The notes beneath the pieces are model-generated. The model had not been told where the DNA came from, did not search any database, and saw nothing but the letters and a program-made list of their open reading frames with translations. The translations under genes and the position numbers were made by a program. Below, in pieces: positions 54,380 to 61,546 of a stretch of DNA of 64,000 bases; positions within the stretch are counted from its first letter, which is position 1, and the number at the start of each line of letters is the position of its first letter. The DNA comes from Aphelenchoides besseyi (taxonomy: Eukaryota > Nematoda > Chromadorea > Rhabditida > Aphelenchoididae), in contig JAMPIQ010000002.1 of the NCBI GenBank assembly GCA_024699855.1, positions 1,054,001 to 1,118,000 of the forward strand, read 5' to 3'.

Positions 54380-55057
54380 GAATCGAACATATTATTTCCC
54401 AAATCAGCATCGAGAACCTAATTGCTTGACCCACTCGAATCTCAACGCCATTAATTGTAAAAAAAGTATGAATGTTTTTGGGTACAGCTTATGATATACG
54501 GGTCAAGATCGTAGTTATAATAAGGCGTTACAACAAACAGTGTATTATTATAAGGACTTTTCAAAGCTAAAATTGACGATGTCTTTAAACGTTGTGTTAT
54601 CGGCGATCTAAAAGAAATAACCCGCTATCTACAACGCACAAACACTAATCAGTTGCCCGATCTATCATAGAAAACAAATCCAATTTAAAAGTCGATGTGA
54701 GTGGATTGCTATGGAATTGAAGCGGAACAGTGACGAGTGGTGTTCGATAACGACATCCGTTCAATTCTTTGCCAAATTTAATGGTTGATAAAACCACTTC
54801 TTCTTTGCTGCTTTTTTTATACACCGAATAAAAAAAAAAGACAGATTGAGAAGAGTAGTAAAAATGATCAGTACAAAGGTGAAGTTTAAGCATTTGTCAG
54901 ATTGTTTACTTTTATTATTATTAGCTAATTAAAAGTCTAAACGAATAAATTTCAACAAGAAAATTTGATTAGCAGTTGATCAAACGGTTTTGCTTAACAA
55001 TGACAAAAGCATTTGAATCCATAACAACGGGAACGTCTAATATGAGCTAACAAGGGA
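54380..55057. other. Gap with one candidate ORF
   Basis: A minus ORF at 54893-54645 (IKFGKELNGCRYRTPLVTVPLQF) is preceded by a TATAAAAAAAG stretch. It could be the 5' part of a receptor-like gene (LNGxxYR..L..VP recalls the start of ionotropic ligand domains), but nothing follows. Confidence 0.25.
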
Positions 55058-55235
55058 AGGGTCATTAGCCACCACGCGATATTCACGCATACTATATGCC
55101 AAAAAACGCGCCTTTTCGAGAGGAATCTGATAATGTTATCAGTTTTTGCTAAACAGTACTCTGCGTGGACTTATGGGCCTTTGAAGTTCCCCGCAAATTG
55201 CGCGGTTTTTATCGCTTTTTTGGCAAGTGGACGCG
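55058..55235 (+). repeat. Left TIR
   Basis: Matches 60121-60303 inverted, with about three mismatches in the outer 125 bp before it decays near the TTTTTATCGC stretch. Contains the perfect palindrome CTGATAATGTTATCAG (55127-55142). A second, private hairpin follows just inside (GCGCTCTTTT / AAAAGAGCGC at about 55232-55257). Confidence 0.8.
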
Positions 55236-55439
55236 CTCTTTTTTGATCAAAAGAGCGCCTTCGAACAGCGGACTTTGGTGTGCTAGTCTATCGATTGCGA
55301 GATTTCTTTTATTGATCATTAAATACTCATTCATTGATTCATTCATTTATTTGCTCACAGCGATAGAAGATAAAGAGACCGCGGTTTAGACGGTTTAAAT
55401 CGTGACAAATTTCATTAAATAACTGTATGTTACACGAAG

Positions 55440-58400
55440 TTACGGTTGTAAATAAGTTTTGCATTGGGGGACATCAGGTAATGGATAATTCCAGTAGTCT
55501 TTTCCGTGTATTGCATCGATTACAAGCGATGTGCGGCGCGTTATTGGTAGATCGTAACTGTGCATAAATGTGCACTCGGTGAGCGCCACACAGTATTCGA
55601 ACTGGAGCCGCTTGTAGAACTTTCGTTGTTCTTCGTTGAGTTGGTCCCTTCTTCGTAGAATTTTTGTTATCTTGTCGATTGCAGCAAGATAACCAGCAAA
55701 ATAACGTCGTTGCCAGTCAGAATAAACTGGTGTTCTTCCATCCGATTGTTTTATATCCAGTGGGTCTTTTCCTGGTTGCCATTGGTTGTACCTGGTTAAT
55801 TCCATATTATTCATCAGATTGGACAATGTATTCTCTGGTTTTGTTAGAACCTCCCTATTCCACCGTTGACAGTATTCTTGTCGCAACGGCGGGAAGAACA
55901 CATCTATCCAATTATGTAGCACAAGTGATGGCCAGAGAAATGCGACGGTAAACTTCTTCGGATCAAAATCGTCATTGGGAATGTCTGGAACATCTTTTGA
56001 GATTTCATCATCTGGTAGGTTATCTGGATCGATAGGTTCTGATGGGACGTCTGCATCATCATTAGGTGTGAATCCCTTGAAATAATGATCGGCCAACGCT
56101 CGGATTGTTTGAAGACCGGTGACATCGCCGTCGGTACACATTACAATCTTTGCGTCGTATTTGATGGAAATTGTCTTTGCCAAATTACGAAGTTTGGAAG
56201 TCTTCGAAGATCCGCTCAACGCGATTATTGGCCCTTCAGTGTCTTCAATTTGAAGAGCAATTTGTCTGTAGTCCAAAATTGCTCTTCCTCTTCCTTCATA
56301 TATTAGCACAGCCGCGATTTTGTTCATTTCTTTGCCTTTTGAGTTCATGAACTTGAATTTGTTGTCACTTACTTCCGAGGCTGTGTCTCCGGTTATTATA
56401 AACGGTCGGAGGATGTTGTATACTTCCTCTTTTCCTTCTTCGTTCGTGTATTTGAAGAAACCAATCAGGAAACTGTCGAAGGATCCGGGCTTTATGCATC
56501 TTTTGACCGTGTTGTAATTAACAACCGCTTTGTTTTTACCGAACAGGTATTGGACGTCCGAGCCAGCTCGAATATCTGCAGATAATCCACTTTTTATATG
56601 TGTAAGATCTCGACGGACAAGATGCTTGAAACGTCCGGAGCCAATTCCCAGGGCGATTTGAATAGCATGAAGTGATGCTTGTGAGCTACTTTGTTGCCAA
56701 GTAATTGAACGACCCGCATTTTGTGCGTTGGCTATAGCCCATTTGAAATCGACGTCTTCGTCTTTCACTGCGTTGAAGAAATCGACGAGTGTAAACAGGG
56801 CGTCAAGAGCATCTACGAGAACAAGCGTTTCCGGCTTTTGATTTGGCGCTGTCAATGTAACCTGGGAGTGTTTTTCTTGTTGTTTCTTTGTTTCAGCGGC
56901 TATTTTCTTGGCAATTGGAGCGCCACCACTTTTCGGCCGACGTCTTGTTAAACAGCGGATGAAGTTGCTGAATACTGAATTACAAACATTGTCGGTGTTC
57001 GGAAAAGTTGTTTTGATCTGTTGTTGAAATTCTTCGATGCCGGGTAACACACGATGAAGTTGAACGTCCATCAGCTTTTGAACCAGCAAGGATGTGTAGG
57101 TCCAATAATGAAGGGAATGTTGCGTGTATGATTTGCGTACTTCTTCGGGCACTTTGTAGTGGCCTTCTTCAGCTATGTTTGGCATAATTTTAATCTGGGC
57201 GAAAGACATTTTTGATGACGCTGAGTTCCAATCTTCGATCATTTGTTGAGTCATACCGCATCTTTTGAATTCATCAGGTATTGAATGAGCGATACTTCGA
57301 TTGAACCACCACTCGATATTGCCGATGAGTATGAAATCCATTAGCGAATCCAAGGCTCGTGATTCATCGGTTGGATGTGAAATGGATCTAATGAATTGCT
57401 CGTCCACAGAGAATACTGGTTCTTCATTGGGTTCGGTGACTGGATCTTCACATATTGCAAGTAATTCTAACAAAATTTGTGAAACTTCTTGGTTATCAAC
57501 AGCCATCGAAAATTCTTCGGCAATGATTGGTTCTATTGGTTGAGTGGGATCTATTTCCATTTGCATGTCGTCGATTGCGTTAGTGACCTGTAGAGCTTCG
57601 GCTGCTGTTTCGGCACGAATTTTTTCATTAATGTCTGTGTCCGGAGCACCCACTGTATCGGCAACGACAAAAACGGGAATCTCTTCGGGATTGTCGTAAA
57701 AGTGATGTGCTGCTAGTTGATAACGAAGCGAGTTGACGTGTTGCTGATTTTTTAGTATAGTGCGTTCTTCATCATTAATTGAGACGGCATATGGCTCAAT
57801 TAATCTCTCAGCTACAAAACACAAAGCAATTCCATAATCACATTCTTGAGGCGTCGGATGGTAGATGTTTTCGTAGGCTGTTGTAATGTGGCATCCTGAG
57901 AAAACCCTCAAGTAAAATTCGCGTGTTTTGTCTAGTCGATCGTCGTCAATTTGAGAAGCCGTCATATACTGAACGTTGAGATTGGGATCGTATAAGGTTG
58001 CTTTAAATTCCAAATTATTGGTTGTGTCGACGGTAATAAATGCGAATTTTGGAGATTGACGATCATCGGTTATAAAAACGAATCCTTTACGCAGTTCATT
58101 GTCCTCGTCAGCGCTCAGGTTGTCGCCGTTGTTATTGTCGATGTGACGACTGAAGAATTGATTTCCCAACACACCGATAAGAGCGGGTCCCGGTGTGGCA
58201 TGTCTGAAGCGTTTGATTTCCTCAACAAATACTAACGGACGGATTTCGTTTCCATAATTTAAGGAAAGGATTTCCTCTTTGTTGAGTTTTCCGTTGTAAA
58301 TGTTGTCGATTGGTTGGTCGTTCTTCAGGTTGTCCAGAAGTTCCATGAATTTGCTGAGTGCTTTAACCATTCCATCAGTATAAGCACCAATCATTGGCGG

Positions 58401-58937
58401 TTGCAATTTACGAAACATCTTCAGCCCTTCTTCGATTGCCTTCGAACAACTCTCGTGTCCACATCCAATTTTGTTGCATTGTTGAGTGGTGAGTTCCGAA
58501 ATGCTTCTTACTGATGTCAGTTGAGTGGCTAAGGTTTGCGTGTTTACGTTCAACGAATTAAGTTCGTATGCGTCGCGATTGTTGCTGGAGGTACACGCTT
58601 CGTCAATAATATCCACATCCATGTTGTTGTCTGTAGAACAACTTTCTTCGTCTTGTTGATATACACGAATTCGCATCTTACTCCACAATTCCGATAATTC
58701 CGGACGTTCCGTTATTTGCTTGCAATTCTCGTCCGATTGCATAACTTCTTTCTCCAAATTGATGAACTCTTCATTGTTATGAATTTGATAATGAATAGCC
58801 GCTGGTGTTGGTGGAGAACCTCCTTCGTTGACGACAAGTTTTCCTGCAGTTTTGGCGAAATTGTCGAAATTGGGCCGATTCTTCCAGTGTGCGACCTAAG
58901 CAGGTTATTATTCGGGTCAATCAATTTTACTTACCAT
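55440..58937 (-). CDS. TOPRIM (topoisomerase-II-like) protein of the TIR element
   Basis: Open from 58895 to a stop at 55440. The nearest in-frame ATG is the last codon of the preceding exon (58937-58935, then a 39-nt intron). That gives about 1,150 aa. Positions below count from the codon at 58757. Residues about 240-340 have a ULP-like shape (KFAFITVDT, LYDPN, CDYGIALCFVAERL), but the Cys of the DCG motif is Tyr and the His is absent. Residues about 815-900 match a type IIA topoisomerase TOPRIM: VLIYEGRG (Glu about 821), IIALSGSSKTSKLRN, then MCTDGDVTGLQTIRAL (DxD at about 876/878). Residues about 1010-1025 (DWQRRYFAGYLAA) resemble the W..KYYKGLGT segment of the same enzymes. No GHKL ATPase or catalytic Tyr domain was recognised. 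Function is unknown; DNA handling is inferred. Confidence 0.65.
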
Positions 58938-59082
58938 TTTGAAGCATTTGTTGAAACATCTCGCGATGTAGTGGTCGCGTTCTTCGATTGATTTGTTTAT
59001 TAAGTTGGATCGCAATGGAAATCAATAATAGGATCAAGATCATGAAGAGGTAATCAACGTGCGAGTTGTTGACGTAATTCAT
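58777..59082 (-). CDS. Small membrane protein ORF overlapping the TOPRIM gene
   Basis: ATG at 59082 (MNYVNNSHVDY). One hydrophobic segment (LFMILILLLISIAIQL) is followed by a basic tail (NRRTRPLHREM and, after the same 39-nt intron, CRKTCRQRRRF). Stop at 58779-58777, about 88 aa. Its second exon overlaps the start of the TOPRIM frame in a different frame, and its ATG is the first one on the shared transcript. A type III-like membrane topology is likely. No family was recognised. It could be a leader ORF with no product. Confidence 0.4.
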
Positions 59083-60120
59083 TTCAACTACAAAGATCAA
59101 TAAAATCAATTACCAAACAAACACGAAACGCCCGACAATTTCAAGATCAATTCAAGGCACGAATGCAAAAAACGAACGTACGCGCAGAGTACAAAACGAC
59201 GTACGCGATGGACTTCGAAAAACATCGACGGCAAAGTCCGATTAACACACACGCGAAGACGTTCGACTCTTCTCTGCGAACCACTTTGTTGATCGAAACA
59301 ACTTGGCTGTTTACGGAACAGTTTGTTGTTCGGGTAACATGTTTGTAGACGCAAATTTTTCCATCTGCCCTACGATCTGACTGTGGTCGGAGGAAAAGTG
59401 AAAAGAGTGGGCATTTTAAGGCCGCGGCAGATTTTTCTACAAGAATCGTCAGTGAACATCTTTTCGTTGCAACGCAACAACAAGTGATCTTTCCATCAGA
59501 GAAGACACTTGAATGTTTTTTGTTCCGCAGCTGCAGTTTCTTTTGATCGTCGGCAAAACCACTGGTCGACACTGCTTGCCAGTGCTTTTGTTGTTGCGCA
59601 ATTCGCACAACGCGCTCAACATTCTGTTTATTTCTAGATCGATTCACAGAGCGGTCAAATCACAAGAGATCAAAGGCAAAAAAGGTTAATTAGATCGGAT
59701 CAAGGCCGGTCGATTGCAATTTTGCATTTTTTTGATTCGTTTTGCAACTTTTTGTAATTCTAATCAATTTTAAGTAGTACGTTGATTAAATCAGTTAGAG
59801 TATTAAAGTGAACCTGAAAAGTTTACTGTGACAACAATCAAAGATGTAGGTGCGCTTGGTCGGATGCAATGGAAACAATAATACTGCTCGCAATGAGCAC
59901 ATCTGATGAATGCTAAACGGGTACATCTCGGTATTTCTTGACATCTTTCGATCCATTGGTAATTGAAACAGTAGCCAGTTGGCTTTTAGCATCTTTCTGG
60001 TCGTTCATTAGTGTACTCGCTCTTAAACCAACCACTAGATTGCTCGAGAAAACAAACTCAAGCGCACTTGTCGCTCATAACTCGAAGGCAATCCAAAAAA
60101 GTCAAATCTACTTGCAAAAC
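59083..60120. other. Non-coding part of TIR element
   Basis: Between the small ORF and the right TIR. The 166-codon minus ORF at 59647-59147 has Cys-rich but uneven composition and no start context, so I treat it as chance. The transcript promoter presumably lies here. Confidence 0.4.
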
Positions 60121-60303
60121 GCGCTTGCGTCCGCACATCGCCAAAAAAAGTACAAAAACTGCGCAATTTGCGGGGAACTTCAAAGGCTCATAAGTCCACG
60201 CAGAGTACTGTTTAGCAAAAACTGATAACATTATCAGGTTCCTCTCGAAAAGGCGCGTTTTTTGGCATATAGTATGCGTGAATATCGCGTGGTGGCTAAT
60301 GAC
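60121..60303 (-). repeat. Right TIR
   Basis: Inverse of the left TIR. The palindrome recurs at 60222-60237. Confidence 0.8.
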
Positions 60304-60455
60304 TCTTCTATTGTAAGTGTATGTACATAAACTAACTGTCTAATTGGAAGATTAATTGAACAGCATAGATACTTATCTTATAGTTCTAACTAACACATTT
60401 CATTACACAAACCTCTACTTTTTTTTATCAAAAAAGTTTATTATACAAACGAATT

Positions 60456-61546
60456 TTAAATAGTTAAACGGCAAAATGCCTCACAGATTTCAGTTAACAA
60501 TTTGACGTCTTTCTGGACCAAATTTGAAACTGCTGTTGACGAAGCAAGTTTCTCCTCTCCATCGTTTTGTTGAACGTATACGGTCACATTTTTTGTGAAG
60601 TTCTCGTCCTTGCACTTTGTTGACGAAATGAAGAGCTCTGCCGACGTTTCAATCGTGAGCTTTGACTTCAAGAAATCCACGCAGTTTTCCTTAAACGACA
60701 CTAGTTAATAAAGTCCATTAAAAGGTCTCACTTTCAAAGCATCAATTTGAAACCGTACAGAGAGTTCGTACAGCTCATTTAGATGATCACCAAAGTTTGC
60801 AGATTCGTCCAAATAGACATATTCAACCATTTCCTTGACTGCTTCGAACGTAGTGCCTTCAATCGTATACTCCGACTTCTCAGAGTGTTCTTTGAACAAC
60901 TTCCCGAAGAACTTCGATTTGACCGCCAAAACGTTCTTGTGAACCTGACAAGCGATTGTTTTTTTGGGTACAAACAGCGAACTCACCTCAATCGCTTTGC
61001 CATCGACCATCAGCATGAAATCTGTGAGTTTGCCTTCCCTTTGGAGGATCAGCAAACATTCAAAGCTGTTGTTCACTGGTCGGACATCAACCAGTAATTG
61101 CGCCCGTTCCAACTCCGATTGCAATCGTTTCCAAATCTCAGTCATTTGGGTTTTGCGCAATTGCAATCGAGTTGTCACATCGACGAAGCCGATCTTTAAG
61201 TTCTTGGCCGCCGATTTCCATACACCTTTTCGGTTGTCCATACTCAGCAACATAACCAGGATGTAGCTGCGTTGATCGGTCAGTTTTTTGACTTTGGCGT
61301 TCTGAAATAATTTCTGTTACTGCCCATGTTCAAATAACTTACTTCTTTCATCAATTCATTTTGAAGTTGCTGGACTTGATCTCTGATGAGATCGCAGTAA
61401 TGTTCAATGGTTTTCATGGCGTACTTGAACAATTTGAGTCTGAAATAGAAACATAACGAAATAACAAAGAACGAAACAATAGGAAAAACACGAAAGAAGG
61501 CATTCAAGGATATTGTAGGTTGTCCTTCCGTCATGTTCGAAAGCAT
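60456..61546 (-). CDS. BTB-domain protein, intact relative of the 9.1 kb pseudogene
   Basis: Minus strand, stop at 60456. The start is uncertain: ATG at 61546 (MLSNMTEGQP) or an internal ATG at about 61417 (MKTIEHYCDL). A possible 52-nt intron between them does not preserve frame. A helical/coiled-coil stretch (IRDQVQQLQNELMKE, LQLRKTQMTEIWKRLQSELERAQ) precedes a BTB: LTDFMLMVDGKAIE, VHKNVLAVKSKFFGKLF, EYTIEGTTFEAVKEMVEYVYL, ELYELSVRFQIDALK. The BTB is split after GKAIE by the same intron as the pseudogene at 9.6 kb. A BACK-like tail ends CEAFCRLTI. BTB proteins commonly serve as Cul3 adaptors; here that is only a family inference. The MATH-like N-terminus of its relatives is absent. Confidence 0.65.

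Follow-up and report, generated by a model that had tools for sequence, protein, structure and literature searches.

Among the systems described so far, the Tc5 and Tc4 elements of Caenorhabditis come closest to the locus reported here. Tc5 belongs to the Tc1/mariner superfamily, and we take a TNA target duplication at a CTNAG site, together with ends of the kind described below, to be the rule for Tc4/Tc5. The uptake of coding sequence by DNA transposons has precedents as well: Turmoil-1 of Caenorhabditis elegans carries transduplicated fragments of RRM and cpg-3, and the 2008 paper on it describes the transduplication of protein-coding genes as previously unknown in animals (PMC2572040), while the Pack-TYPE transposons of plants are reported as non-autonomous DNA transposons with captured coding DNA (PMC8903248). 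Here, we analyzed a 64,000-nucleotide stretch of Aphelenchoides besseyi DNA (the window, G000:C2:1054001-1118000) against its own genome of 47.4 Mb in 31 contigs, three of which measure 18.1, 17.8, and 10.0 Mb. The element bounded by terminal inverted repeats (TIRs) in this window is a degenerate Tc5-type transposon and not a new TIR class; very probably, it is a non-autonomous element that acquired, as a 4.4-kb copy, an unrelated and highly repeated TOPRIM-like gene unit. With Tc5/Tc4 it shares the TIRs, the TNA duplication in CTNAG, and a PF04236 domain inside the element; it differs from them in that the transposase is reduced to a C-terminal remnant and a large unrelated gene is carried. 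Like Turmoil-1, the window element is a nematode DNA transposon with acquired foreign coding sequence; whereas Turmoil-1 has fragments of two known genes within its TIRs (PMC2572040), the window element holds, between its TIRs, a near-full-length gene from a repeated family of unknown nature. The element would add a further case of the nematode type of transduplication, with a near-complete gene.

The features of the TIR element, in window coordinates, are as follows.

55048-55050, no strand: left target-site duplication TAA, in the context CTAA
55051-55224, plus strand: left terminal inverted repeat, starting CAAGGGAAGGGTCATTAGCC, its arm with at least 42 matches in the own genome
59639-60313, minus strand: long arm of the Tc5-type element, common to gene-less copies, as delimited by comparison with them
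59869-60030, minus strand: C-terminal domain of a Tc5 transposase (PF04236; 40.2 bits, E 2.0e-8), a remnant with one TAA inside
60140-60313, minus strand: right terminal inverted repeat, from the arm comparison
60314-60316, no strand: right target-site duplication TAA, from the target-duplication survey

Comparison of the window sequence with itself revealed inverted arms at 55047-55224 and 60140-60317, each 178 nt long and 94% complementary. The original prediction had placed such repeats at 55058-55235 and 60121-60303; the repeats are real, while those coordinates lie some 10-15 bases off. The element proper spans 55051-60313, its first bases CAAGGGAAGG (CAAGGG) standing at 55051 and their complement at 60313, and it is flanked by a TAA duplication whose context, CTAA before the element and TAAG after it, corresponds to a CTNAG-type site. 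Searching the own genome with the window arm gave at least 42 matches, 40 of them long and 2 short, in a list that holds the best candidates only, so that degraded TIRs would escape it. Most of the aligned ends start with CAAGGGAAGG or a near variant, within CTNAG. Our survey of target duplications comprised 23 rows, from which L011, L051, and L053-L055 (loci carry L numbers) were dropped as having a single end or two left ends; since L050 is a duplicate of the window locus and L008 is the same element as L040, 16 distinct elements with both ends were left. Perfect TNA duplications were found in 11 of these 16 (the window element, L005, L040, L041, L043-L048, and L052).

Apart from the long frame described below, the element contains the Tc5 transposase C-terminal domain listed above, whose score exceeds the cut-off, so the earlier view of that frame as the element's sole coding relic did not hold. 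The window element holds no intact DDE transposase, only this C-terminal remnant, and would therefore be non-autonomous. In the own genome the PF04236 profile gave 52 matches; by comparison of positions, some of them, several below the cut-off, fall within another 15 TIR elements. Elsewhere in the genome there are Tc5 copies whose open frames reach 474 codons, and the one Tc5 frame that was checked (L038) carries Transp_Tc5_C and DDE_1. Because its ends, TNA duplications, and PF04236 remnant are all of Tc5 type, we assign the element to the Tc5-type transposons rather than to a new TIR class.

Between the arms, the cargo unit comprises the following features.

55248-55427, minus strand: 3' end region of the unit, in one of the two 3' versions known from the family, by comparison of copies
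55440-58895, minus strand: main exon of the cargo protein, an open frame with its stop codon at 55440-55442
56124-56297, minus strand: TOPRIM-like core from Glu821 to the DxD at 876-878 (YEGRG ... TDGDVTG), from the sequence, with weak PF01751/PF13155 matches over residues 835-892, short of the Glu
58896-58934, minus strand: putative 39-nt intron, GTAAGT...CTTAG, read from the sequence alone
58935-58937, minus strand: probable start codon, the last bases of an upstream exon, in frame with exon 2 (1152 aa)
59440-59638, minus strand: cargo-family 5' block (TCTAGAAAT...), which at several loci elsewhere forms one half of a palindrome; the captured boundary is at 59638

As originally predicted, one long frame lies between the repeats, with 1151 codons open on the minus strand and 1105 aa from the first ATG/GTG/TTG. 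The candidate intron would join this main exon to an upstream exon that ends in an in-frame ATG, giving a predicted protein of 1152 aa.

Comparison of the copies indicates that this gene is cargo. In the own genome, the window protein gave 44 matches at dispersed loci, a point in favor of the original prediction. Clustering these 44 matches with those of the 3' end yielded 48 loci that hold pieces of the gene unit, 29 with coding sequence and 19 with the 3' end only (some shorter than 100 bp). The original prediction had raised the question whether each copy is flanked by the same TIRs; among the 40 TIR matches listed, they lie within 1.7 kb at only 3 of the 48 loci (the window, L010, and L011), leaving 45 loci, including 26 of the 29 coding ones, with no TIR match listed within that distance. 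Conversely, many copies of the TIR element lack the gene. Of seven gene-less elements aligned, four (L042, L043, L047, and L048) keep an uninterrupted capture site, AATGGCAATCAAAAAAAGAGCG, and the other three (L040, L045, and L046) show variants of it. In L010 this site is empty and the gene lies about 80 bp away in the opposite orientation. The window and L011, on the other hand, start the unit alike, with TCTAGAAATAAACAG, and agree exactly at its 3' junction, where TTTTG meets ATCAAAAAAGAGCG; just outside the 5' junction, L011 reads GGCGA, which is shortened in the window. Since the gene sits at two positions of the same element and in opposite orientations, it was captured at least twice into the Tc5-type element, and one of the composites is present at two places on different contigs.

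Other copies appear to record later or further events. L040 retains 29 bp of the unit start, joined at GAGCGCG, as expected for a putative internal deletion derivative of the captured unit, and 16 bp at the capture site of L045 resemble the reversed cargo 3' end of L024, weakly suggesting another capture scar. L050 (G000:C2:209600-211000) matches both window flanks (54753-60726 compared) with 95-97% identity, has the same TAA duplication, and contains the element without 55245-59983; we read it as a probable deletion derivative of a segmentally duplicated window locus and not as a demonstration of excision. Captured coding sequence of non-transposon type, gene-less relatives, and copies of the gene elsewhere are what define a Pack-type element, and all three were found here, provided that the cargo is not itself a transposon. 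In two gene-less elements (L043, L048) and similar ones, a stretch from GTCTAGTGGTTAAGCC to GGTTCGATTC resembles by eye a short interspersed nuclear element (SINE) derived from a transfer RNA; 138 bp of this SINE-like region also adjoin the cargo 3' end in L024.

These comparisons bear directly on the role that the original prediction had given to the protein, namely that of the mobility enzyme of a new class of TIR transposon. The long frame within TIRs at three loci is what such a class would look like. However, the Tc5-type ends, duplications, and transposase remnant, the numerous gene-less copies with the same TIRs, the 45 of 48 unit loci with no listed TIRs nearby, and the opposite orientations of the gene at different places largely refute the proposal, to which we give very little credence, and the TOPRIM protein was rejected as the mobility enzyme of the TIR element. 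In the mechanism that we favor, the element would have lost most of its own transposase gene and would depend for its movement on a Tc5 transposase supplied by other genomic loci, which would cut at its TIRs. The gene would have entered while a break or gap within the element was being repaired and would afterwards have traveled as a passenger, while its protein might fold as a TOPRIM domain, using the Glu and DxD with metal ions on DNA phosphodiesters, and might serve its own family rather than the TIR element.

Several observations weigh against the Tc5-type composite as we describe it. A TNA duplication was not seen in 5 of the 16 distinct elements (L006, L010, L039, L042, and L049), and the outer ends of L053-L055 differ from the rest of the TIR family. 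No intact partner with exactly the window TIRs was found, the open-frame Tc5 copies being absent from the TIR matches listed. Furthermore, the ends of the captured unit coincide with boundaries in copies outside TIRs: the boundary at 55248 is common to the window, L011, L012, L022, L060, L062, and L064. Capture during repair is favored because no clear target duplication was found at the ends of the captured unit in either capture examined. The unit boundaries are, however, shared inside and outside the TIRs, and therefore insertion of a discrete unit fits as well as repair capture; on these data, the two cannot be separated.

Whether the cargo unit is such a discrete mobile unit depends on its family across the genome, the copies of which are mosaics with internal deletions. 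The 5' block (TCTAGAAAT...) occurs at 30 loci, at several of them as a palindrome, and 17 of the 30 have a cargo piece within 6 kb, the block always lying 5' of the piece and two blocks sharing one piece. When blocks were placed at random (1000 rounds), 0.44 of them on average, and never more than 4, had a cargo piece, versus the 17 observed. At the other end, copies with one 3' version agree through AATAAA...GATTCGAAATT and then diverge into several continuations, some of them common to a few copies, while the second 3' version, that of the window, gave 13 matches, some short. In the 3'-end search, 21 of 28 matches stop at query positions 319-326 of 326, which is no proof of a sharp 3' end because the query ran only about 6 bases beyond the boundary.

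The ratio of nonsynonymous to synonymous substitution rates (dN/dS) was 0.19-0.66 in 59 of 68 pairs of copies, the pairs being non-independent. One of the 68 pairs is identical, its two loci overlapping, and in eight pairs with residues 610-847 of L030 the ratio was 0.47-2.32, reaching at least 0.96 in seven of them. Over residues 591-830 (window 56268-56987), two of four comparisons gave 1.13 and 1.66. Because dN/dS lies mostly below 0.7, the cargo protein was probably under selection during much of the life of the family. The alignment rows over residues 591-830 resemble mosaics of alternative versions.

Such a family could be read as a TOPRIM-like unit that is itself mobile, with the TOPRIM-like protein encoded by its sole large gene as a possible mobility enzyme, and that was inserted by its own transposition, so that the window would hold an element nested in an element. 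The 48 unit loci, many with internal deletions, the recurrent 5' block found beside cargo pieces far more often than in the random placements, the 3' version that agrees up to GATTCGAAATT before several continuations set in, the identical unit boundaries inside and outside the Tc5 element, and the low dN/dS in most pairs all agree with this reading. Nonetheless, we consider it unlikely. Consistent termini and target duplications were sought in the flanks of the copies and not found, no terminal inverted repeats could be defined, and the flanks of the 5' block are themselves mosaic repeats; own mobility is therefore a possibility and not a result. The 3' continuations are partly shared, the count of 21 of 28 ends is no gauge of sharpness, and there are two 3' versions. 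Neither capture into Tc5 shows a clear duplication, several cargo copies share their flanks as products of segmental duplication, and for 13 of the 30 blocks there is no cargo piece nearer than 6 kb.

The duplicated flanks also count in favor of an ordinary, lineage-specific host gene family, immobile in itself, which segmental duplication and several types of transposon would have multiplied and scattered, a reading that we regard as a serious contender albeit one that falls short of even chances. A copy adjoins a Pif1-helicase frame in L014, a Tc5 transposase in L038, and, in L028, a DDE_3-like frame that scores below the cut-off; by eye, Helitron-like and integrase-like frames also lie next to copies. 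Some copies also seem by eye to retain introns and upstream exons, including one exon with a hydrophobic stretch, and a longer N-terminal coding sequence. The recurrence of the 5' block at many unlinked loci and the common 3' boundary speak against the host-gene family. The most far-reaching alternative holds that the cargo family represents an unrecognized class of eukaryotic mobile element, which would have a TOPRIM-type protein as its sole large gene and a palindromic TCTAGAAAT start, would spread by a TOPRIM-based mechanism, and would insert into or ride on Tc5-type elements, some copies perhaps being anchored through the upstream membrane-segment exon; we judge it improbable. Within the Tc5-type composite, the TOPRIM-like gene appears to be a passenger and not the engine.

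The copies supplied some further observations on their surroundings. L022, L060, L062, and L064 have about 0.5-1.5 kb of downstream sequence in common, with a gene-like frame (MNSNVRDNNEDLPPF... in L022), their shared 3' flanks pointing to a possible segmental duplication of a larger block. At L012/L038 (G000:C2:423201-429009), a different Tc5 element splits a cargo copy; its transposase frame runs to 364 codons (PF04236 and PF03184). In L091, L025, and L062, a palindromic block of about 300 bp (TCTAGAAAT...ATTTCTAGA) lies between TTGCG and CGCAA; judged by eye, it is perhaps a miniature inverted-repeat transposable element that has duplicated the CG of a palindromic target.

TOPRIM proteins comprise DnaG-type primases, type IIA and IA topoisomerases, topoisomerase VI/Spo11, and OLD nucleases. 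The cargo protein resembles them by eye in the order of its Glu and DxD, and the motifs to which the original prediction had drawn attention are present, namely Glu821 and DGD at 876-878 (1105-aa numbering), with Glu821 kept in all five aligned copies that cover the position. Its assignment to TOPRIM fared less clearly. Against Pfam, residues 835-892 of the window protein matched Toprim_2 with an E-value of 0.17 and Toprim with one of 0.19. Over 14 copy pieces, which are non-independent and of which five span the whole region from Glu to DxD, Toprim matched 6 (best E 0.0034) and Toprim_2 matched 5 (best E 0.029). These matches stay below the curated cut-offs; still, no other Pfam family was matched by two or more of the 14 copies, and in the window, L010, and L011 the Toprim matches lie at the same residues. 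In these three copies, the profile match starts 6-23 residues past the Glu, so that the invariant Glu lies outside the matched stretch. Taken together, we lean slightly toward a TOPRIM identity of the cargo protein.

A fast-evolving, lineage-specific protein of another fold, in which YEGRG...TDGDVTG is a chance resemblance, is a reading to which we give somewhat less than even odds. Besides the sub-threshold matches that begin after the Glu, it is favored by the better scores of RE_MjaI in L010 (E 0.029) and of Pus10_N_euk in L011 (E 0.02). In PHROGs, a family of unknown function matched 5 of the 14 copies (best E 0.0028) and a head scaffolding family matched 8 of 14 (best 0.013), both of which we read as noise; such matches show that E-values of this size weigh little. 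NCBIfam, PADLOC, and PDB (by sequence) yielded nothing for the C-terminal part, and a further PDB sequence search returned one irrelevant match (E 1.1). The alignment profile did not clearly set the TOPRIM proteins of E. coli apart from other frames: against 305 E. coli frames that included five TOPRIM proteins, profile A3 ranked parE, topA, dnaG, and gyrB 10th, 11th, 12th, and 17th, at E 5.6-9.6 and behind unrelated frames, with topB not among the matches listed. In this search, the alignments of parE, gyrB, and part of dnaG take in the DxD, whereas that of topA does not; with profile A2, only parE and topA were among the matches listed. Neither BLASTP nor hhalign gave a significant match to E. 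coli DnaG; at least 120 protein hits to E. coli DnaG, 92-100% identical, were left out of the comparison. What speaks against chance is the recurrence of Toprim and Toprim_2 as the sole families in more than one copy, the by-eye fit to a strand-Glu-strand-DxD-helix order, and the only place found by tblastn against phages, a non-significant one (E 6, residues 810-924, three records of one phage), which covers the same residues and is annotated as DNA primase in two of the three records.

In contrast to the known TOPRIM proteins, the cargo protein has no ATPase, winged-helix, or zinc-binding domain recognized by Pfam/NCBIfam, and no PDB sequence match. Neither a GHKL ATPase nor a winged helix with a catalytic Tyr, as in type IIA topoisomerases, was matched by Pfam or NCBIfam, from which divergent forms could escape. 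Homologs of the cargo protein were not found in the collections searched, where protein searches scored the 8000 candidates sharing most words; pattern searches gave pattern matches but no tblastn relative. Several by-eye impressions were also discarded for want of profile support, including a C48-protease-like middle region and Spo11-like, gyrase-like, and DnaG-like readings of the TOPRIM segment.

The novelty of the locus lies in its cargo, a repeated gene family with no relatives in the collections searched and perhaps TOPRIM-like. In the literature searched (titles and starts of abstracts of open-licence papers, subscription journals falling mostly outside), no TOPRIM-based eukaryotic transposon is described. 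Were both the TOPRIM fold and mobility of its own true of the family, it would represent a kind of mobile element that relies neither on DDE transposases nor on tyrosine or serine recombinases nor on polymerases.

Elsewhere in the own genome, 25 PF03175 matches mark protein-primed type B DNA polymerase genes with frames of up to 1103 codons, perhaps Polinton-like. The cargo was considered as a gene of such protein-primed polymerase elements and this was rejected, as comparison of coordinates placed none of the 25 near any cargo locus; a polymerase-like frame noted by eye beside L035/L036 has no Pfam support. Finally, a small contig (L071, G000:C20:14835-15080) carries a ParE/GyrB-like gene that, from its frames by eye, looks bacterial, with a Toprim match of 44.7 bits, and is perhaps bacterial DNA in the assembly.

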